IMG/VR virus record: IMGVR_UViG_3300010885_049495
Span: 1 to 25,599 of that record
Source of the DNA: a virus
DNA length: 25,599 nt
Direction: 5' to 3' (one strand)
The notes under the pieces were generated by a model, which was given only the letters and a program-made list of their open reading frames with translations, was not told the origin of the DNA and did no database searches. Made by a program: the position numbers and the translations under genes. This document shows, in pieces, positions 3,954 to 25,500 of this stretch (the first letter of the stretch is position 1; each line of letters starts with the position of its first letter).

Positions 3954-4286
3954 ATGCGAAGAACCAACACCCTGACCCTTGAAGTAGGCCCCTCAATGCG
4001 GATCACCAACCTGACCAATGGTCGGGTTAAGATCGAATTAGAAGAAGTCGACTCCACGGCTTTTGAGCAAACCCTTCCGACTACTGTCTATGACAAGAGC
4101 GGACTTGCCAGAAGGCTGGGTGTTAGCAAGCGGTCGATAGACAACTACATCCGCCAAACGAGGAACCCGCTACCCTATACCATCGCCATGGGTAGGGCAC
4201 GGTTCCTTGAGACGGATGTGATGAAATGGCTCATAGACGGAGCCAGCCCAGCAGCCCGTAGAGTCAAAAGTCGCCTTGGACTATGA
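3954..4286 (+). CDS. HTH DNA-binding protein, excisionase/AlpA-like
   Basis: 110 residues. A poorly conserved N-terminal half is followed by a winged-HTH segment beginning about residue 45: YDKSGLARRLGVSKRSIDNY, then a wing (PYTIAMGRARF) and a closing helix (ETDVMKWLIDG). This is the layout of MerR/Xis/AlpA-type DNA-distorting proteins, which act as excisionase or early regulators. Proximity to the integrase and att site makes excisionase the most attractive role. The start at 3954 directly follows the preceding stop; an internal ATG at 3996 is an alternative. It overlaps the resolvase gene by 4 nt (ATGA). Confidence 0.6.
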   Translation: MRRTNTLTLEVGPSMRITNLTNGRVKIELEEVDSTAFEQTLPTTVYDKSGLARRLGVSKRSIDNYIRQTRNPLPYTIAMGRARFLETDVMKWLIDGASPAARRVKSRLGL

Positions 4287-9703: not shown

Positions 9704-11461
9704 ATGTCAATAGCTGCAGTGGATTTCGAGACTTACTATGATGCCGAAGTTTCAATCGTCACGCTCGGTGTTTACCACTATTTACGTCACCCCCAGAGTG
9801 ATATCTACCTCGTCTCAATCGCAACCGACACAGGACTCAAATACGTCGGCCACCCCAAAGACTTCGACTGGAGCCAGATTGCGGGCCCTCATTGGACGTG
9901 GCTCTCACACAACGCTCAGTTTGACCTTCCGGTCTTCCAAAGACTCCAAGAGCTTGAAGTAGGGAATACCTGCGATGTCACGGAACTCGCCGCATGGCAC
10001 GATACTGCTGACCTAGCCGCGTTTCTTGGGACTCCTAGATCGTTGAAGGAGGCTTCCAAGCACCTGCTGAACCTCGAGATCTCCAAAGATACTCGGGATA
10101 AGATGAAGGGGCAGCGTTGGGAGACCATGACCCCCGAATTCAGGGAGGAAACCAACCAATACGCCTTAAAAGACGCCGAAAACTGCCTTCAGATATGGCT
10201 TGAGTACGGCAGCTTGTGGCCCAAGCACGAGCGGGAAATCTCCCAAATGACACGTCAAATGGCCCTTCGAGGGGTTCCTTTGGACGTTGAAGGGCTGAAG
10301 AACGACATTCATAAGCTGGAAATGGACCTTTGGGAGATCGAGCAGTCGATCCCGTGGAAGGATACGCATTCCCTCTTATCTCCAATCGCACTTCGTGAGG
10401 AATGCGCCAAGTACGGGCTAGTACCTCCCGATTCGTTTGCCCAGGACGATCCGGATGCGGAAAAGTTTTTTGAAGAGCACGCTGCAAAGCACCCTTGGAT
10501 CCAGGGGGTGCGGGACTACCGCAAGGCGTCCAAGCATCTCAAGACCCTGCAGACGATGAAGAATCGTGAGCGTGGCGACGGATGGATGACCTACGGCTTG
10601 CGCTATGGCGGAGCCCACACGATGCGCGACAGTGGCGAAGCTGGGATTAACCTCCAGAACCTGCCAAAGGGTGTCGTAAGCGGCGTAGACGTTCGCAGCA
10701 AGATTAGAGCACCCAAGGGGTACACGTTTGCGATCGTCGATCTTTCGCAGATTGAGCCGAGAGTTCTTCACTGGCTAGCTGAGGACGAAACCATGCTGAA
10801 GTACATCAGGGAGATTCCCGATCTGTACGAGGCGCAGGCACGGGCCTGGGGTTTATTCAGCGGAGATGGTCAATTCAAGGGTACGGCCCAACGTCACACG
10901 ACGAAACAGCTTTCACTCGGTTTGGGCTACGGCATGGGCAGCAAGAAATTTGCTGACGTTGCCGGAGTAGAGCCTAAGGAAGCCAAGCGACTAACGGATC
11001 TCTACCGCAGCAAGAACCCGCAGGTTACCTCGCTATGGGGAAACCTGGAGAAGCAGATGCGGAAGATTGCAAACTCGCAGGGAGAGAAAGATTTCAAGAT
11101 GGACCTCAAGTCCGGTCGGCATATCCGCTACCGGAACGTCGGGAACATTAACGGAGGCCTCACCGCCGAGATCCCAAGGGCTGGCAAGCTCATGCGCCTT
11201 GGTTTTTGGGGCGGGGTTCTTACCGAGAACATCGTTCAGGCCACGGCACGCGATGTGTTCATGCATCAGTGCTTGAAGATCGAGGAGTCAGGGATACCTG
11301 TGCTCATGCGGGTGCACGACGAGGCGGTCTGCCTGGTCGGGGAAGGTAAAGCAGAAGAAAGCCTACAGAAGATCGTAGCAATCATGTCGACGGCACCGGA
11401 CTGGGCTAAAGGCCTACCGCTAGCCGCAGAAGGTTCCATTTCCAACGTCTATAAAAAGTAA
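9704..11461 (+). CDS. Family A DNA polymerase with 3'-5' exonuclease
   Basis: 585 residues, a short phage-type Pol I lacking a 5' nuclease. The N-terminal DEDDy exonuclease has DFE (D7, E9), HNAQFD and YALKD. Polymerase motif A is VDLSQIEPR (D346), motif B is RHTTKQLSLGLGYG (R397, K401) and motif C is HDE (538-540). The residue aligned with E. coli Phe762 is Leu405 (codon 10916-10918), which published phage work associates with temperate phages. Replicates the phage genome together with the primase-helicase whose ATG overlaps this stop codon (TAATG at 11459-11463). Confidence 0.95.
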   Translation: MSIAAVDFETYYDAEVSIVTLGVYHYLRHPQSDIYLVSIATDTGLKYVGHPKDFDWSQIAGPHWTWLSHNAQFDLPVFQRLQELEVGNTCDVTELAAWHDTADLAAFLGTPRSLKEASKHLLNLEISKDTRDKMKGQRWETMTPEFREETNQYALKDAENCLQIWLEYGSLWPKHEREISQMTRQMALRGVPLDVEGLKNDIHKLEMDLWEIEQSIPWKDTHSLLSPIALREECAKYGLVPPDSFAQDDPDAEKFFEEHAAKHPWIQGVRDYRKASKHLKTLQTMKNRERGDGWMTYGLRYGGAHTMRDSGEAGINLQNLPKGVVSGVDVRSKIRAPKGYTFAIVDLSQIEPRVLHWLAEDETMLKYIREIPDLYEAQARAWGLFSGDGQFKGTAQRHTTKQLSLGLGYGMGSKKFADVAGVEPKEAKRLTDLYRSKNPQVTSLWGNLEKQMRKIANSQGEKDFKMDLKSGRHIRYRNVGNINGGLTAEIPRAGKLMRLGFWGGVLTENIVQATARDVFMHQCLKIEESGIPVLMRVHDEAVCLVGEGKAEESLQKIVAIMSTAPDWAKGLPLAAEGSISNVYKK

Positions 11462-13629
11462 TGAAAATTTTCTCACTCCCCAATCTCGTCAGTCACATCG
11501 CAGCTATAACGCATGACGTTATACTCAGCACTACCCCGAACTCCCGCCCAGCGGGAATGACCAAGGAGAAGTACAACGATTGGTGCAGACAATCCACTAC
11601 CCAGGGTCACTTCATTTCCGCTTGGGAAGGTATCAACCCAGCTGGGAGGGTCGTGTCTAATAACCCTGCAAGGAAGTTGTACGGGATCATTGCCGACTAC
11701 GATAACCCAGGAGCTTTATCCAAGGTTCAGAGTCTTGGCTCCTCCACAAACCACCTGCCAACTTGGGTTGTAGAAAGTTTCTCTCCAGGCAAGTGCCGAC
11801 TGATCTGGCCCTTCGAGGACCCGATCCTGGTAACCAATGCTTCGATCACCGAGGCGTTCCTTAAAGAACTGGACGGGAAGATAAAGATCTCGAAAGCACT
11901 CCCAGGCTTTGATGCCTCCAGCTGGAAGGAGTCACAGTACTTTGAGCTAGGGACGAACTGGCAGCAGATTGCCGGAGCCACCCCGATCCCAAACTCACTG
12001 CTGTCCGAGTGTATGCTCAATGGTGGCTTGTCCGCCAAGATGGACATCGAGGATACCGAGATACCGCTGGACGTGATTGCCGAGGAGGTCGAGCGTCGCT
12101 GGCCTGGTCTGTGGGGCGGTCCGTTTGAAGAAGGTACCGTGGGCCCGTTGTTTTGGGTCCAGCCTTTCGTCAACCACCGCAGCGCAGTCATCCGGCCTAA
12201 CGGGATGGTTTGCTTTTCGACCAGAGCGGTCAGCAACTTCATGCCGTGGCGTGCGATCCTTGGAAACACGTTCATCGACAAGTATGAGACCGAGAGGGCA
12301 GCCAAGCTCGGGGAGATGTTTTACTTCGACGGGGCCCGCTACTGGACGGATTACAGCAACCCTGGCAAGTGGCGTTCCTACGCTGCAGGCGATGTCGAAA
12401 GGCATCTCAAGGAAGCCAAGTGCAACCCACGTCCGGCGAAGGGACAGTTCAACTCGGAGGTCGACAAGGTGATCCTGCACATTCAGAACAACCGATACGT
12501 GAATGCTGCAGTGCCGATGCTGTTTCATCACGATCGTATCGTCCCCTACAATGGCAGTGAGTATCTCAACATCTCCAACAAGAAGGTGATGCTTCCGGCT
12601 GAGGATGGTGACCCGAAGCTCTGGCCTTGGATCCACAATTATCTGTTTACGGGATTCGACGGAGAGCAGGACGGGATCCCAGCTATCGAGTTCCTTTTGG
12701 GTTGGTGGCAGCGTTTGTACAAAACGAGCCTTGAAGGTAACCCGCAGCAGGGCCAGTCGATCATCGTGGCCGGAGAGGCGCACACGGGTAAGAGCTTTCT
12801 CTCCAGGTGTCTGATCGGCTTCTCCATGGGTGGTAGTTGCACGGCGGAGGATCTCCTGCTGCAGCGTACCAAGTTCAACAAAGAGGCCGCGTACAACGCC
12901 ATATGGCGCTGCGATGATGCAATCGCCAAGGGGGACAACCATACCAAGCTGACGATCGCCCATAGCCTCAAAGCCATGGCGTCAAACCCTGTGGTAAACT
13001 TCCAGCCGAAGTTCATGGACTCCACGGAACTCCCGTTTAAGGGACGTGTCATACTGACCTGTAACGTCGATCCGGAGTCCCTAAAAATCCTCCCGTACCT
13101 CGACGGTTCCATCAAGGATAAGCTGATGCTATTCCGCATTGCGGCAAGGTTTCAGCCTCATTTCTTTGACAACAATCGCGAGAGCGAGGGCCGTGCACTG
13201 GCCGAGTTACCACACTTCCTGCGCTGGCTCCTGGACTACAAGGTGAACCCCGCAATCATCGATATTCATAACCCTCGTTTCCTTATCCGCAGCTTCCACC
13301 ACAAGACTCTTGTACAGGAGGCCAACAGTGAGCAGCCCGAGTCGATCATGGCCGAGCTGATCCACCGAGCAATGGTCAGCGTGCAGGCGACGGTGAAGAA
13401 GGGCGAGTCCAAGAAGATGACGGCTACCGAACTTGCCCAGGAGATCGAGGGCGTGGACCTTGGGAACACCCTCCGGCAGCTCGGGGGTATCGTTCACATG
13501 GGTAAACTGCTCCATAAGGTCATCGAGCAGAGGCTCTCGCCGCACCTGACAGAACCCCCTAAGCGGAGCACGGGTGGGGCTACCAGGTACGCTTTTGACC
13601 CTTGGGCTGACCTCGACGAGGCGGCGTAA
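11461..13629 (+). CDS. Bifunctional primase-helicase (AEP-like plus P-loop helicase)
   Basis: 722 residues. The N-terminal part holds YGIIADYD (residues 74-81), a D-x-D motif typical of archaeo-eukaryotic-type primase/polymerase domains, preceded by the WEGINPAGRVVSNNPAR stretch seen in phage primases. The C-terminal half has a P-loop GEAHTGKS (438-445), a Walker B-like IWRCDDA, and a downstream VILTCNVDP sensor-like motif, fitting SF3/D5-type hexameric helicases. It would prime and unwind DNA for the upstream polymerase. The 1-nt overlap with that gene suggests translational coupling. Class assignment within primase-helicases is uncertain. Confidence 0.82.
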   Translation: MKIFSLPNLVSHIAAITHDVILSTTPNSRPAGMTKEKYNDWCRQSTTQGHFISAWEGINPAGRVVSNNPARKLYGIIADYDNPGALSKVQSLGSSTNHLPTWVVESFSPGKCRLIWPFEDPILVTNASITEAFLKELDGKIKISKALPGFDASSWKESQYFELGTNWQQIAGATPIPNSLLSECMLNGGLSAKMDIEDTEIPLDVIAEEVERRWPGLWGGPFEEGTVGPLFWVQPFVNHRSAVIRPNGMVCFSTRAVSNFMPWRAILGNTFIDKYETERAAKLGEMFYFDGARYWTDYSNPGKWRSYAAGDVERHLKEAKCNPRPAKGQFNSEVDKVILHIQNNRYVNAAVPMLFHHDRIVPYNGSEYLNISNKKVMLPAEDGDPKLWPWIHNYLFTGFDGEQDGIPAIEFLLGWWQRLYKTSLEGNPQQGQSIIVAGEAHTGKSFLSRCLIGFSMGGSCTAEDLLLQRTKFNKEAAYNAIWRCDDAIAKGDNHTKLTIAHSLKAMASNPVVNFQPKFMDSTELPFKGRVILTCNVDPESLKILPYLDGSIKDKLMLFRIAARFQPHFFDNNRESEGRALAELPHFLRWLLDYKVNPAIIDIHNPRFLIRSFHHKTLVQEANSEQPESIMAELIHRAMVSVQATVKKGESKKMTATELAQEIEGVDLGNTLRQLGGIVHMGKLLHKVIEQRLSPHLTEPPKRSTGGATRYAFDPWADLDEAA

Positions 13630-13640
13630 AGACGTAAAAA

Positions 13641-13678
13641 CAACTACCCACCACCAACTATTCATGGGTGGGTAGTTG
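13641..13678 (-). terminator. Likely intrinsic terminator on the minus strand
   Basis: CAACTACCCACC (13641-13652) and GGTGGGTAGTTG (13667-13678) form a perfect 12-bp stem with a 14-nt loop. On the minus strand the stem is followed directly by TTTTT (complement of 13636-13640), a classical rho-independent form. On the plus strand it lacks a T-tract but could still fold just after the primase-helicase stop. Minus-strand termination here would end a transcript coming from the non-coding region to the right. Confidence 0.6.
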
Positions 13679-13686
13679 GTGAGCTG

Positions 13687-13751
13687 GACGTGTACAAGGC
13701 TTCGACATGTCGTAAAAACGTGTCGAAGAAACCCGTTTTTCTGTACACGTC
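13687..13751. repeat. Two-tier nested inverted repeat
   Basis: Outer arms GACGTGTACA (13687-13696) and TGTACACGTC (13742-13751) are perfect. Inner arms CTTCGACA (13700-13707) and TGTCGAAG (13721-13728) are also perfect, with CGT/ACG closing around AAAA inside. The two tiers share one dyad region but are offset by a 13-nt 3' segment containing GTTTTT. It may be a foldable RNA or a double operator near the origin. Confidence 0.6.
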
Positions 13752-13771
13752 TTGGTGCCCACTTGGTGCCC
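13751..13771. repeat. Tandem direct repeat CTTGGTGCCC
   Basis: CTTGGTGCCC occurs at 13751-13760 and 13762-13771, 11 bp apart, at the right edge of the nested inverted repeat. The spacing of one helical turn suits protein binding on one DNA face. An AT-rich run (about 13809-13832) follows. Confidence 0.5.
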
Positions 13772-13954
13772 GATTATTTGAACCATTCGGCTAGGGTTGG
13801 AGCAGTCTTGATATTATATTATTTGTTATATTGCGACCCTGCATCCCTGTTTCCCTGAACCACTTAATCAAGGGTTCAAGGTTAAATAAAAGGATAGTAA
13901 ATTGCAGTAATCAGTACGTAAAGCTATGTTTAACATAATTAATGGCTAGATTTA

Positions 13955-14276
13955 GTGAGGGGAGTGAGGGTAACAGTGAGGGTAGAATATTTTACCCTCA
14001 CTCGGTAAACCCCTGTCGGAAAGACATTTAACCCACGGAGTGAGGGTAGTGAGGGTAACTAGCAAATTACATGTGTGTGTATGTACAATGCCAATACATG
14101 TAATTATATAACATACATTAACTCTTATATACTACTTCTTCCTGCACACATAAATTAAAAGTTACCCTCACTCCCCTCACTCTCACCCTTATCTGTCTTA
14201 AAATCAACGAGTTATGTAGTGAGGGTAAAATTTTTCTACCCTCACTTTACCCTCACTTTGCCAGTTTTACCCTCAC
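13955..14276. repeat. Iteron array, candidate replication origin
   Basis: Ten perfect copies of the 9-mer GTGAGGGTA: plus orientation at 13964, 13976, 14040, 14049 and 14219; minus orientation at 13993, 14163, 14237, 14248 and 14268. Variants GTGAGGGGA (13955) and TCCCCTCAC (14172) complete an 18-bp unit that recurs exactly in inverted orientation at 13955-13972 and 14163-14180. The two clusters flank an AT-rich core (14058-14160). Iterons around an AT-rich unwinding region are typical of replication origins, and the array lies 325 bp after the replication genes. A partition or repressor-binding array is the main alternative. Confidence 0.7.
14065..14105. repeat. Inverted repeat in the AT-rich core of the iteron region
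   Basis: AATTACATGT (14065-14074) and ACATGTAATT (14096-14105) are perfect 10-bp arms around a 21-nt spacer. The element lies inside the AT-rich segment between the two iteron clusters, where duplex opening or initiator binding would be expected. Confidence 0.55.
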
Positions 14277-14317
14277 TCGCCCCCTCCGGGGAGTGTGTCT
14301 CAAATGGGGGTCGTGAT

Positions 14318-14436
14318 CCTGAACCTAGGATGCCCCGTAATCGCTCAAAAAGGGCCCTAGAACGAGTTTTAGGGGTTAGAGTGCGGTATATTACCATAAA
14401 GCCATTTTACGGGGCATTTTGGTGCCCTGGTTCAGG
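14318..14436. other. Multi-branched foldable element (three-way junction)
   Basis: Outer arms CCTGAACC (14318-14325) and GGTTCAGG (14429-14436), inner arms ATGCCCCGTAA (14330-14340) and TTACGGGGCAT (14407-14417), both perfect, make a long interrupted stem. It encloses two hairpins: CCCTAGAA-CGAG-TTTTAGGG (14355-14374, one G-U pair) and GGTA-TAT-TACC (14385-14395). The arms are self-complementary, so the fold is possible on either strand. No long ORF is convincing here. It may be a structured RNA or a DNA cruciform element next to the origin. Confidence 0.55.
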
Positions 14437-14499
14437 GGTACAGGTTTTTGGGCAAAATTTTTTTCCAGGGGTGGGGGTATATACGTTACCGCGTCCACG

Positions 14500-14521
14500 C
14501 CCACCCCCACCCCCACACCCC
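14500..14521 (-). other. G-quadruplex motif on the minus strand
   Basis: The plus strand has C-runs at 14500-14502, 14504-14508, 14510-14514 and 14518-14521, separated by 1-3 nt. The minus strand therefore reads G4-TGT-G5-T-G5-T-G3, a strong canonical G4 motif. A complementary G-rich stretch GGGGTGGGGGT lies nearby at 14468-14478 on the plus strand, so duplex hairpin folding could compete. Confidence 0.7.
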
Positions 14522-14604
14522 ACGGCGGGGGTGCGATCACGCATTATGCGTGAGCACGTATCGTGCGTCACGTGCGTGTCATGCGACCCCAAGCCGAAGG
14601 CTTG
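14516..14604. repeat. Series of back-to-back palindromes/hairpins
   Basis: Four perfect dyads in 89 bp: CACCCC/GGGGTG (14516-14533), TCACGCAT-T-ATGCGTGA (14537-14553), GCACG-TAT-CGTGC (14554-14566) and CAAGCC-GAA-GGCTTG (14590-14604). The CpG-rich words CACGTG and GTGCGTG fill the interval. They could be operator sites or local hairpins of a transcript. Confidence 0.5.
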
Positions 14605-15695: not shown

Positions 15696-15998
15696 ATGCT
15701 ACACGAACACAAGCCGTTGAAGTCATGGTGGGTATCCAAGATCACTCGCGGTGCCCATGGAAAACCCGATCCCGTCTTTGACGGAGACTGGTCATTCAAA
15801 CAACGCCTCAAGATCCGTAGGATCAGAGAGGAATTGCCCGATCCCAAGGTGTCCCGACTCAAGATGCAGGTAGCTATGCTACTTGCTGAAAGGGACAAGC
15901 CTACTGACACTCGCTCTCCGAAGGAGATTGAGATTGGTCGCCTTGTGGCGGAGCTTCGTCACCAGCAGAGGACGATAAGACGGATTGGAAACCCGTAA
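15696..15998 (+). CDS. Small basic hypothetical protein
   Basis: 100 residues from ATG 15696, preferred over TTG 15657 because the ATG has the genome's typical leader (CCACACACAAAACACCT) and the earlier start lies in the terminator hairpin. It begins MLHEHKPLKSWWVSKITRG and continues with long basic helices (FKQRLKIRRIREEL, LKMQVAMLLAERDK, IGRLVAELRHQQRTIRRI), perhaps a coiled-coil or nucleic-acid-binding protein. No family is recognised. Its last 98 nt overlap, on the opposite strand, the end of the small-terminase-like gene. Confidence 0.65.
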   Translation: MLHEHKPLKSWWVSKITRGAHGKPDPVFDGDWSFKQRLKIRRIREELPDPKVSRLKMQVAMLLAERDKPTDTRSPKEIEIGRLVAELRHQQRTIRRIGNP

Positions 15999-16563
15999 GT
16001 TCACTCTGTGAAGGGTTGGATGGTGACGCCTCGGTGACACTTTCGTCCACAAAATCGCCCTCAACGATGTCATCGGACAAGGTTCCTCGGAGTCGGTCGT
16101 TGACCACCTGCAGCTGCACGATGGTGTTGGATTTACCTTCACCATCATCCATGCCCAAGGTTCGACGCATCATCTTATCCGCTATGTCGAAATCCTTCCA
16201 CGTCCTAGGCGGTGCGATCACCGTCTGGGTAAGGATCCGGAACAGCTTATCAGCTGCCTTGTTTCGATACTCTTTGGCGATCCCTTCCAGATCTGTTGCT
16301 GTAGTTGTAAGGTTTTGAGGGGCTTTCCCCTCTTCTAATTGTTCCGCTACTGACTGGTTCCTTGCGACCCTGTCGTTGTGTAACCCTGCAGCCTTGTTAA
16401 GTCTATTCGAGACACGCTTCGGGGTATTCCATCCCTCTCTGTTGCTCCGCATCCTAACAGCTGCGTCACTGATAGCGAACAGCTTGGCTACTTCCCTTAA
16501 GGGAGTTCCCTTCTCACAACTCTCTCGGATCTTATCCCATGGAACGTCTAAAGCTTTTGGCAT
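15901..16563 (-). CDS. Small-terminase-like HTH protein
   Basis: 220 residues from ATG 16563; the frame is open upstream to 16770, but the HTH domain begins at this Met. An N-terminal helix-turn-helix (VPWDKIRESCEKGTPLREVA, then ISDAAVRMRSNREGW) is followed by a central helical region with PRTWKDFDIADKMMRRTLGM (about 127-146), a pattern I associate with terminase small subunits or their relatives in Verrucomicrobia phages. The tail is Ser/Asp/Gln-rich. Small terminases recognise the packaging site and load the large subunit. It is the only minus-strand gene in the right part, same strand as terL but about 13.6 kb away. A transcription regulator is the alternative. Confidence 0.6.
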   Translation of the reverse strand: MPKALDVPWDKIRESCEKGTPLREVAKLFAISDAAVRMRSNREGWNTPKRVSNRLNKAAGLHNDRVARNQSVAEQLEEGKAPQNLTTTATDLEGIAKEYRNKAADKLFRILTQTVIAPPRTWKDFDIADKMMRRTLGMDDGEGKSNTIVQLQVVNDRLRGTLSDDIVEGDFVDESVTEASPSNPSQSELTGFQSVLSSSAGDEAPPQGDQSQSPSESECQ

Positions 16564-22335: not shown

Positions 22336-23352
22336 ATGACAACCATCGAAGTTACACCTAATCAGCTCCGCGACGTTCTTAAAGACTGCCACAAGGCCAA
22401 GCTCAACCCCTTCATCCAGGGGCAGCCAGGCGTTGGCAAGTCCGCAGTCGTTGCCGAATACGCCAACTCCATCGGGGCAGAGTTCGTCGACGCACGACTC
22501 GCCTACTACGCCCCGCAGGATGTGCAGGGCTTCCCCTACCTCAACTCCGAGGAAGACGGGAGCAAGACCATGCGGTTCTCCAAGCCCGCTTTCTGGCCCA
22601 AGACTCCCAATCCAGTCATCGCACTGGAGGAGTTCAACTGTGCCACCAAGTCGGTTCAGAACGTCGCACTCCAGTTGCTCAACGAGCGCCGTGTCGGCGA
22701 GCATGTCCTTCCCGAGGACTCGTTCGTCTGTCTGCTCGGTAACCGTGCAGAGGATCGCGTCAACATCGAGAAGCTCTCGAGTGCGGTAGTCAACCGCATC
22801 GTCAACATCCGGATCCGCCTCGACCTAGACAGCTGGGTCAAGTGGGCCCAGAACAACGGCGTCGACCCTTTGGTCATCGCCTTCCTCCGCTACCGCCCCG
22901 ATCTCTTGACCACCTTCAACGGTGCCAAGTGGGACGGCATCAGCAACTTCGCTTCCCCCAGAACTTGGGAGAAGGCATCGAAGATCTACGAGACCTCGAC
23001 CAACCGCACCATCCGCCATGCCCTGCTCAACGGGGCGCTGGGTGATGGAGCTGCCAGCGAGTTCCTCGGGTTCCTCGGAGTGTATGAGAAGCTCCCCGAC
23101 CTCGACGCGGTTCTGCTCAATGCGGACACCGCCGACCTGCCGACCGACCCGTCCACGATCTACGCTACCTGCGCTGGTCTGGCCAAGAAGGTCAGGGGCA
23201 AGACGATGGGTGCCTTCCTCACCTACACCGAGCGTCTCGGCAAGGAGTTCTGTGTCTTCTCACTGAAGACCGCAGTGCTCCGCGACAAGGCTCTCTGCAA
23301 CACTCCGGCCTTCACGACCTGGGTCAGCGATAACCAGGAGGTCTTCGCTTAA
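22336..23352 (+). CDS. MoxR-type AAA+ ATPase
   Basis: 338 residues. Walker A GQPGVGKS (29-36), Walker B VIALEEFN (E98, E99; the usual DE is EE), sensor-1 Asn in LLGNRAED (N136) and an arginine-finger-like VVNRIVNIRI (R154) are clear. A helical lid domain follows (FASPRTWEKASKIYE). MoxR and CobS-like ATPases work with VWA partners to insert metal or remodel proteins; the 24337 gene is such a partner. The EE in Walker B may alter hydrolysis. Leader AACACCAATACACCCAT, no Shine-Dalgarno motif. Confidence 0.9.
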   Translation: MTTIEVTPNQLRDVLKDCHKAKLNPFIQGQPGVGKSAVVAEYANSIGAEFVDARLAYYAPQDVQGFPYLNSEEDGSKTMRFSKPAFWPKTPNPVIALEEFNCATKSVQNVALQLLNERRVGEHVLPEDSFVCLLGNRAEDRVNIEKLSSAVVNRIVNIRIRLDLDSWVKWAQNNGVDPLVIAFLRYRPDLLTTFNGAKWDGISNFASPRTWEKASKIYETSTNRTIRHALLNGALGDGAASEFLGFLGVYEKLPDLDAVLLNADTADLPTDPSTIYATCAGLAKKVRGKTMGAFLTYTERLGKEFCVFSLKTAVLRDKALCNTPAFTTWVSDNQEVFA

Positions 23353-23381
23353 GACCCACACGGGGCGACCTCTATCACGAG

Positions 23382-23558
23382 ATGTATCACGTCAAGGAGT
23401 CGATACGCCACGGCTACGTTCCAGTTTACTATGTATTCTGTTACGGAGCTGATGGCGTAGCATCCCTAGCTTTCAACGGCGAGGTATTCTGGAGTCATGC
23501 AAAAGCTCTTTACGCTTGTGAACAGCTTAACAAATCACTCCGGAGGCTACTCCAATGA
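23382..23558 (+). CDS. 58-residue hypothetical protein
   Basis: ATG 23382, product beginning MYHVKESIRHGYVPVYYVFC. A beta-like aromatic region (YVPVYYVFCYGADGVASLAF) is followed by a helix (AKALYACEQLNKSLRRLLQ). No recognised family. It starts 29 bp after the AAA+ stop and overlaps the next ATG by 4 nt, supporting expression. Confidence 0.6.
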   Translation: MYHVKESIRHGYVPVYYVFCYGADGVASLAFNGEVFWSHAKALYACEQLNKSLRRLLQ

Positions 23559-23803
23559 CTAAGCTAGAAATCAAAGCGTGTCTGCGTCTCGGGGTAGAGG
23601 TCTACCTGCAGTCCAGTAGGACCGAACGAGTTTGGCAGTTAGAGATACATGGAGGTCTCGGCAAGATCATCGGGTATCAAATAAGCCCAGGCCTTCACCC
23701 GTCTTTAACTACTAGACAGATCGACTGGCACCTCGAAAACAAACCTACCAACTTTACAACGATAAACCCATGCGCTTCTGGTTCCATTACAACAAGCCGT
23801 TAA
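23555..23803 (+). CDS. Small hypothetical protein
   Basis: 82 residues, beginning MTKLEIKACLRLGVEVYLQS. The first 60 residues look like a compact beta fold (ERVWQLEIHGGLGKIIGYQI). The last 20 residues read through the leader and first 34 nt of the following gene in another frame. The C-terminal tail is low complexity (FTTINPCASGSITTSR), so it may be non-essential overlap sequence. No family is recognised. Confidence 0.5.
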   Translation: MTKLEIKACLRLGVEVYLQSSRTERVWQLEIHGGLGKIIGYQISPGLHPSLTTRQIDWHLENKPTNFTTINPCASGSITTSR

Positions 23804-23988
23804 GCCAACAGAAAAAACAGACCATGCTCACCTTTCATTTTAAGGGGGCATGTCACTTCGTAGAAGACTTCGTAGTTCACACTGCGATCAAACCTTTCTT
23901 ACGTAAACGCAAGACTCAACCCAAGTGTGTCATCGCTGGCGATTGCAGCAACATCGTAATCACCGACGGCGTAGCACACATCTATTAA
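23770..23988 (+). CDS. Conserved small phage protein, unknown function
   Basis: 72 residues. MRFWFHYNKPLSQQ, then LTFHFKGACHFVEDFVVHTA, KRKTQPKCVIAGDC and ITDGVAHIY follow a pattern I recall from several phage small proteins of unknown function, with two conserved Cys and several aromatic residues. It starts in the tail of the preceding gene (34-nt overlap) after a TTTACAACGATAAACCC leader. Confidence 0.7.
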   Translation: MRFWFHYNKPLSQQKKQTMLTFHFKGACHFVEDFVVHTAIKPFLRKRKTQPKCVIAGDCSNIVITDGVAHIY

Positions 23989-24008
23989 CAACCAACCTAT
24001 AAAATAAT

Positions 24009-24311
24009 ATGTCGATCGAAACAACATCATTCAAAATCTACTTAAAAGGGGCTCAGTATAAATACGAAGAGCACAACGCAAGTGGCAACCCAGGACACGT
24101 CAACGCCACCATCGACGTGTATGGGCGCGACTCTAAGGCAGTGCTTAAAAGCCTCGAGTATGGTAACGGGAGCCACTCAAACTTCTTTAAGTTCGAGCAC
24201 CACGGCTTAAGTCCCGCCACTTTGAGAACCTTAGCCTGCATCTTTGATGACCTCGCTGATGAAGCCGAGAGGCTTTCAACCCTGTTAGCCAAGGCTCGAC
24301 TTCTATCTTAA
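24009..24311 (+). CDS. Small hypothetical protein
   Basis: 100 residues. The N-terminal half is beta-like (SFKIYLKGAQYKYEEHNASG, NATIDVYGRD) and the C-terminal half helical (PATLRTLACIFDDLADEAER). No recognised motif. It precedes the VWA gene by 25 bp. The leader CCAACCTATAAAATAAT is AT/C-rich and G-free. Confidence 0.6.
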   Translation: MSIETTSFKIYLKGAQYKYEEHNASGNPGHVNATIDVYGRDSKAVLKSLEYGNGSHSNFFKFEHHGLSPATLRTLACIFDDLADEAERLSTLLAKARLLS

Positions 24312-24336
24312 CCACACAACCAACCTACAAAACAAT

Positions 24337-25500
24337 ATGTCAACCGCATCCGAATTAGTATCCAACGCAACCACCCAGATCATTCTAGATCACCCATTCT
24401 TCGCAACCCTGTTGCTGCACATGCCCCGCATCGAGGATCCCTCGGTCGAGACGGCTTGCACCAACGGCGTTTCCATCAAGTACAACCCCAAGTTCATCGA
24501 GTCCCTCACGGTAGAGGAAGTCGCCGGACTGCTGGTGCATGAAGTCCTGCACCCTGCACTCGGGCACCTTCATCGCCTACCACCCAATGCCCACGGCAAT
24601 ATGGCTGGCGACTACGCAATCAACAACTTCCTCGACAACTACAACAACGGGGTCGGTTGCAATAAACTCAAGCTTCCCGAGGGTGGTTTAATAGACCACA
24701 CATTCGACGAGCTATCCGCAGAGCAGATCCTTGCACGTATCCCCAAACCACCCGAGCCTCGAGGCGGTAGGCCAGGTGACAAGCCAGGTGACAAGCCAGG
24801 CTCAGGCTGGGGTGACTTCGAGGCACCAGCTGGCACCGACGAACTGTCTCCGGAGGAGATGCAGAGCGAGTGGGAGCGTCGTCTCATCCAGTCAGCCACT
24901 GCTGTCAAGATGCAGCGTGGCAACCTGCCTGGTTGCATCGAGGCTCTCATCAAGGACTTGGTCGACCCCAAGGTTCCTTGGGAGCAGGTGCTCAATCGCT
25001 TCGTCGATAACACCTCGGCGAACGACTACAGCTGGGCCAAGCCAGACCGTAGGTTCCTACCCGACGACATCATCATCCCCGACCTACATGACGAGACCCT
25101 CGGTCACATCGTCGTGGCGCTCGATACCTCGGGTTCCATCTACGGTGCACCCAAGGTGCTGTCCTCATTCGAGACCGAACTCAACAACATCCTTCAGCGT
25201 TGCAAACCGGAGCGTGTCACGGTGATTCACTGCGACGCCAAGGTCCATCACGTCGAGGAGTTCGGTTCCAGCGACACTGTCAAGCTCGTCCCCAAGGGCG
25301 GTGGCGGTACCGCCTTCGAGCCCGTCGGTGAGTATGTTGCCGAGCACAACATGAACCCACGGGTTCTTATCTACCTCACCGATCTGTACGGATCTTTCCC
25401 CGACATCCCGTGGCAGTTCCCAACCATCTGGTGCGTCTACGGCAACCAGGACGGCGTCGCACCCTTCGGTGAGACCGTGCACATCCCAGACCTGGAGTAA
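24337..25500 (+). CDS. DUF2201-like zincin metallopeptidase with VWA domain
   Basis: 387 residues. The N-terminal zincin-like domain has HEVLHPALGH (H68, E69, H72, H77), a HExxH motif, and a possible further ligand in GDYAIN (D92). A Gly/Pro/Lys/Asp-rich linker with tandem PGDK repeats (about 147-160) joins a central helical part to a C-terminal VWA domain whose MIDAS reads ALDTSGS (D263, S265, S267). This DUF2201-type layout is commonly paired with MoxR-type ATPases, here at 22336. Whether the zincin is an active protease or a binding module is unknown. Leader CCAACCTACAAAACAAT. Confidence 0.87.
   Translation: MSTASELVSNATTQIILDHPFFATLLLHMPRIEDPSVETACTNGVSIKYNPKFIESLTVEEVAGLLVHEVLHPALGHLHRLPPNAHGNMAGDYAINNFLDNYNNGVGCNKLKLPEGGLIDHTFDELSAEQILARIPKPPEPRGGRPGDKPGDKPGSGWGDFEAPAGTDELSPEEMQSEWERRLIQSATAVKMQRGNLPGCIEALIKDLVDPKVPWEQVLNRFVDNTSANDYSWAKPDRRFLPDDIIIPDLHDETLGHIVVALDTSGSIYGAPKVLSSFETELNNILQRCKPERVTVIHCDAKVHHVEEFGSSDTVKLVPKGGGGTAFEPVGEYVAEHNMNPRVLIYLTDLYGSFPDIPWQFPTIWCVYGNQDGVAPFGETVHIPDLE

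Follow-up and report, generated by a model that had tools for sequence, protein, structure and literature searches.

A repeat array in a tailed-phage genome fragment is best explained as an iteron replication origin, for which the primase-helicase encoded upstream would serve as initiator; we put the probability that the array is an iteron origin of a tailed-phage family at about 0.8. The window, by which we mean the whole stretch of DNA that was analysed, is a 25.6-kb fragment (25,599 bases) from an IMG/VR record. An earlier note on this DNA had read the array as an origin, and the comparisons below support that interpretation: the array surrounds an AT-rich core, holds a fixed position relative to a gene, and keeps its geometry across phages in which the repeated word changes.

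The repeat array and its setting

The array starts 325 bp 3' of the end of the primase-helicase gene. The features discussed below are as follows (coordinates, strand where there is one, description).

11461-13629, + strand: 722-aa primase-helicase, proposed initiator, with AEP-like N-terminus, SF3 (DUF5906/D5-like) helicase and winged-helix-like C-terminus
13336-13596, + strand: its C-terminal domain (codons 626-712; helix-strand-helix-helix-helix-strand order), proposed to bind the iterons
13846-13862: left arm, containing CCCTG repeats, of the outer inverted pair, 88% match to the right arm
13954-14277: the complete array, comprising 12 AGTGAGGGT-A iterons
13955-13972, + strand: tandem pair on the outer left, GTGAGGGGA (variant) followed by GTGAGGGTA, 9-bp pitch
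13976-14001: outer left convergent pair with AT spacer, GTGAGGGTA-GAATATTT-TACCCTCAC
14040-14057, + strand: inner left doublet, 9-bp pitch, toward the core
14058-14162: AT-rich core (~72% AT), where melting is proposed to occur; contains a 10-bp inverted repeat
14163-14180, - strand: inner right doublet, GTGAGGGTA plus variant GTGAGGGGA, 9-bp pitch, toward the core
14202-14214, + strand: exact match to the IHF consensus WATCARNNNNTTR, as AATCAACGAGTTA, in the right spacer; placement conserved among relatives
14219-14245: outer right convergent pair with AT spacer, GTGAGGGTA-AAATTTTTC-TACCCTCAC
14248-14276, - strand: two terminal inverted iterons (14248-14256 and 14268-14276)
14428-14444: right arm of the outer inverted pair, partner of 13846-13862

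Ten perfect and two variant copies had been claimed, in both orientations, and recounting gives the same figures: 10 exact copies of GTGAGGGTA and two with one mismatch (GTGAGGGGA) lie between 13955 and 14276, six on each strand. The exact word occurs nowhere else in the 25,599-base window. At up to one mismatch there are 15 matches in the window against 4.75 expected (maximum over 100 shuffles, 11), and 322 bp hold 12 of these 15; similarly, the best 8-mer within 500 bp occurs 12 times, against a maximum of three in 200 composition-matched simulations. The unit described in the earlier note as an exactly inverted 18-bp sequence is indeed exactly inverted, but its true length is 21 nt (13954-13974 and 14161-14181, 100% complementary), the inner right doublet being an inverted copy of the outer left pair. 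The AT-rich core likewise contains the 10-bp inverted repeat reported for it (arms AATTACATGT at 14065-14074 and ACATGTAATT at 14096-14105), and to this description we add that the inner iterons form head-to-tail doublets that both point toward the core. Rfam gave no match, the exact 21-nt inverted unit was not found in viral contigs, and searches of phage and plasmid collections for homology to the window returned nothing at either the DNA or the protein level.

Other repeats accompany the array. A second class, CCCTG-N2..4-CCYTG, is found around the arrays (13834-13862 and 14428-14444 in the window), and in most relatives such pairs exceed their contig-wide density within 400 bp of the array. 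Directly right of the window array, at 14469-14525, are GGTGGGGGTATATACG and CCCACCCCCACCCCCAC tracts similar to the iteron of the sister phage G001 (GTGGGGGTA); these tracts are possibly relics of an earlier iteron word. An element resembling TTGAACCATTYGAA is common to several relatives outside their arrays (13778-13790 in the window, ~6911-6920 in L004, and near the repeats of L148). Two strong hairpins, one with 13-bp arms and then a nested 10-bp/8-bp structure, stand at 13641-13752 directly 3' of the primase-helicase stop, possibly as a terminator or a pRN1-like stem-loop.

The window also encodes an integrase, a RuvC-like resolvase, an exonuclease and a family-A polymerase, together with a large protein (459-2258, - strand) that we call terminase-like, a name that is our own reading because the PHROG it matches has no assigned function. 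An HTH protein whose layout recalls that of a terminase small subunit (TerS) is encoded at 15901-16560 (- strand), 1.6 kb right of the array and distant from the large-terminase-like gene. It has no Pfam or NCBIfam match, and most relatives likewise encode it close to their arrays. A second HTH protein, a small one, is encoded at 3954-4286, and at 22336-25500 a MoxR-like AAA ATPase adjoins a DUF2201 VWA/metallopeptidase-like protein, a possible accessory or chaperone pair that is kept in most relatives.

Conservation of geometry among relatives

Scans of viral contigs found 23 loci with relatives of the primase-helicase at 28-67% identity, and the candidate relatives number 557. In all 14 contigs analysed, namely the window and the 13 relatives with enough downstream sequence, copies of a short motif are clustered, in both orientations, at 157-3261 bp 3' of the primase-helicase stop, although G007 and G014 have a weaker or different layout. 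The presence of an array is by itself partly a matter of choice, since the motif was selected for each contig from the region downstream of the gene; the measurements of uniqueness, spacing and the IHF element came after that choice. The motifs of the 13 relatives mostly differ from the word of the window:

window: GTGAGGGTA
G001: GTGGGGGTA
G002, G003, G016: GGTGGATGA
G004: GGTGGAGSA
G005, G006: GTTAGGGYA
G009: GGGGAGTGA
G010: GTGGTGGTA
G011: GGTGATGGT
G013: GGTGGGTGA-like
G014: TTGAGACCT-like

Across whole contigs of 40-76 kb, exact copies of the motif cluster solely at the array. Four of the contigs (G002, G003, G007 and G009; 66-76 kb) have the same 123 or 127 nt at both ends, repeated exactly, and are read here as closed circles.

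Despite the different words, about 11 contigs have a common layout. Its left half consists of a '-' copy, a spacer of 42-50 bp (~47), a '+' copy and, at 9 bp, another '+' copy, followed by the AT-rich core; on the right of the core come a '-' copy, a second '-' copy at 9 bp, a spacer of 43-49 bp, a '+' copy, ~20 bp, a '-' copy and then more '-' copies. When gaps and orientations were shuffled, the right '-/43-49/+' element beside the core was expected in 0.88 of 11 arrays and was present in nine, while the left and right spacers together were present in six, against 0.12 expected from the same shuffle (G006 was omitted from this test as a near-duplicate of G005). By eye, G001 and G016 fit the layout, with spacers of 48 and 45 bp, if one extra or one two-mismatch copy is allowed. 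The layout is kept in G010 and G011, whose primase-helicases are ~35% identical to that of the window.

Among more distant relatives (below ~35% identity) no array of such geometry was found, their best repeats being coding repeats or simple tandem arrays that lack it. Dense 8-bp and 9-bp tandem repeats lie downstream of some of these genes, as at 10800-11100 in L148 (AGGGAAGC) and 12400-12600 in L147 (GCTTGATG, which looks like a coding repeat). The late regions of the relatives also contain repeat-rich windows with higher k-mer counts than the arrays, and k-mer count alone is insufficient to identify an origin.

A conserved element in the right spacer

An exact match to the IHF consensus falls within the array in nine of the 14 contigs, and in eight of these its position and orientation correspond, while the density of such matches over whole contigs is 0-0.33 per kb. 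Near matches were seen by eye at the same place in G006 (GATCAACGACTTG) and G002 (GATAAAGGACTTA). IHF is the natural reading of this element, and one that we favour somewhat; another bending protein or a phage factor is a possible binder. We claim no host, because a search of genome contigs gave five distant matches only, on small MAG contigs of different phyla that are probably mis-binned phage.

Strand asymmetry

The GC-skew check suggested in the earlier note was supportive but not clean: of 11 phages, 10 show a fall in skew at the array, yet its sign is the reverse of the one conventionally expected at an origin. The drop is seen although the flanking genes on both sides share one strand, and at four-fold degenerate sites of same-strand genes it appears at the array in nine of 11 phages; the exceptions are G003 (four-fold sites) and G014. 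In the four closed contigs, genes of both functions are C-rich on the top strand right of the array. Since this direction (C-rich rightward) opposes the leading-strand rule, the skew marks a boundary without proving an origin.

The primase-helicase as the probable reader of the repeats

The 722-aa protein matches Pfam DUF5906 (E 3e-9) and a PHROG DNA primase family (E 4e-5), and its AlphaFold model has a pLDDT of 82 and a pTM of 0.46. Foldseek with the full-length model returned poxvirus E5/D5, the C-terminal region of NrS-1 polymerase, ASFV PrimPol and PriRep1; the DUF5906 match and the Foldseek matches to D5/E5, NrS-1 and PriRep1 (E 1e-7 to 1e-10) place the protein among the SF3 (D5-like) helicases. 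The N-terminus holds an ADYD motif, invariant across 18 sequences and expected of AEP primases (DxD); the PrimPol matches were obtained with the full-length model, and no curated AEP family matched the protein. The P4 alpha primase family TIGR01613 scored 14.1 bits against a cut-off of 108.7. The last ~90 residues are predicted to form a winged-helix-like unit, for which Foldseek with this domain alone gave a best, non-significant E of 0.08, the weak matches often being winged-helix DNA-binding proteins.

The earlier note had named the primase-helicase as a possible binder of the repeats, and the comparative evidence (iteron word, covariation with the C-terminus, geometry) favours it. The ratio of C-terminal to helicase identity is 0.81-0.99 in pairs of phages with the same motif, against a median of 0.68 in pairs with different motifs, a pointer rather than proof because the pairs are non-independent and same-motif pairs number only four. 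Such a pattern was not seen for the AEP part, the polymerase, the exonuclease, another helicase or the gene at the SSB position. G005 and G006, with identical iterons, have primase-helicase C-termini that are 98% identical and TerS-like proteins whose HTH parts are 42% identical; conversely, the window and G002 have TerS-like proteins with 90% identical HTH parts and different iterons. The wording of the iterons therefore apparently follows the primase-helicase C-terminus and not the TerS-like protein, and we regard this C-terminus as quite probably the iteron binder. The eight contigs searched, four closed ones included, contain no DnaB_C, Rep_3 or ParB_N family.

Packaging, partition and stem-loop alternatives

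That the iteron wording is decoupled from the TerS-like protein in both directions, with no co-variation between the two, argues against the alternative that survives best, improbable as it is: a packaging site, pac or cosB-like, at which the terminase small subunit would bind the repeats with the help of IHF. Lambda cosB does combine repeats with an IHF site, and in most relatives the TerS-like HTH protein is encoded near the array, 1.6 kb to its right in the window. Yet the TerS call has no Pfam family behind it, and the array lies in a fixed relation to a replication gene, encloses an AT-rich core and falls at the change in strand asymmetry.

Less probable still is a regulatory or centromere-like site, either operators of a phage repressor, for which the small HTH protein at 3954-4286 would be available, or a parS-like partition site with IHF. 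P1 parS and operator clusters are likewise multi-copy, with sites in both orientations and IHF, but the ParB family is absent from the same eight contigs, each genome has a single cluster rather than dispersed operators, and a large AT-rich core 3' of a helicase gene suits an origin better. Least probable is a pRN1-like stem-loop origin formed by the hairpins at ~13641-13752, with the iterons as accessories: such an origin is reported for pRN1 and proposed for phage BIP-1 (PMC4234260), and the window's hairpins directly after the stop codon are strong (z -2.5), but in most relatives shuffled sequence folds at least as well as the 170 nt past the stop, while the array persists.

A model for initiation and its implications

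Under the preferred reading, an iteron origin served by its upstream-encoded primase-helicase, the C-terminal domain of that protein would bind the G-rich 9-mers, and the two inner doublets, face to face across the AT core, would nucleate two SF3 helicase rings. IHF or a look-alike would bend the right 45-bp spacer, folding the outer iterons onto the inner ones; the AT-rich core would then melt, the helicases would load in opposite directions, and the AEP-like domain would lay primers for extension by the phage family-A polymerase. Binding, bending and melting are proposed here from the arrangement of the sites, and it is from their mirror symmetry alone that initiation may be called bidirectional, as the earlier note had done.

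Whether these arrays constitute a distinct class of phage origin seems to us an even question. In such a class the dyad arrangement, with 9-bp doublets that face each other over an AT core and bent spacers of ~47 bp, would have stayed fixed over a long evolutionary time; the recognition word would change concertedly in all its 10-12 copies, and the C-terminal domain of the AEP-SF3 primase-helicase, which would load itself, would change with it. If this is true, it would contradict both the assertion that only PICIs have their type of origin layout and the stem-loop proposal for AEP-SF3-winged-helix initiators. The roughly 10 matched initiator/origin pairs form a natural series of constant geometry and variable specificity, which makes initiator-origin co-evolution directly testable by domain swaps and binding assays, as well as the face-to-face loading of twin SF3 helicases on a phage origin. 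In addition, origins are hereby predicted for a family of several hundred uncultivated viral contigs, and a PICI-like layout in autonomous phages bears on the source of satellite replicons.

Comparison with known replication systems

By analogy, the array is best read as an iteron origin like those of PICIs/SaPIs and P4, but belonging to autonomous tailed phages and paired with an AEP-type initiator. In the pri-rep-ori modules of PICIs and SaPIs, the origin lies directly 3' of the primase/helicase-initiator gene, and two sets of iterons, whose sequences vary between elements, flank an AT-rich region (PMC6092414). The arrays described here similarly lie 3' of the putative initiator gene (325 bp in the window, 157-3261 bp in relatives) and have iterons on both sides of an AT-rich region, with words differing between phages, and Foldseek matched the window protein to PriRep1 of SaPIs, among others. 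Unlike those satellites, these are tailed-phage contigs of 57-76 kb, four of them closed, that encode a large-terminase-like protein, an integrase and a family-A polymerase of their own, and the arrays differ from those of PICIs in their 9-bp G-rich units and fixed 43-49 bp spacer with an IHF consensus.

P4 alpha joins a primase and an SF3 helicase to a C-terminal winged helix, through which it binds origin repeats, and for the AEP-SF3-winged-helix proteins of pRN1 (ORF904) and Bordetella phage BIP-1 a stem-loop 3' of the gene has been proposed as origin (PMC4234260). The window protein, as modelled, resembles P4 alpha in carrying primase, SF3 helicase and a winged-helix-like C-terminus in a single chain, but its primase is AEP-like where that of P4 is of the Toprim type, and each contig has a single repeat cluster, with no second, crr-like one as in P4 (ori + crr). 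With ORF904 and BIP-1 it would share, as predicted, an AEP-like domain, an SF3 helicase and a winged-helix-like C-terminus, and a candidate origin 3' of the gene; in place of their large stem-loop without iterons, iterons are present, and a stem-loop is not conserved among the relatives.

The closest fold matches of the 722-aa protein, NrS-1 phage polymerase and poxvirus D5/E5, are only ~10-14% similar to it in sequence, and we know of no iteron origin for either. SV40 large T antigen is an SF3 helicase that assembles on short G-rich repeats, in both orientations, beside an AT tract. The array resembles the SV40 origin in these respects and differs from it in unit length, spacing, primase fusion and the IHF-like element, and we claim no membership. 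Nor does the array belong with the Rep_3 iteron plasmid replicons, no Rep_3 initiator having been found in the eight contigs searched. What seems to be new here is the pairing, in autonomous tailed phages, of a probable iteron origin with an AEP-type protein, and its interest lies mainly in the constancy of the geometry while the words of the iterons vary and the recognition domain, apparently, varies with them.
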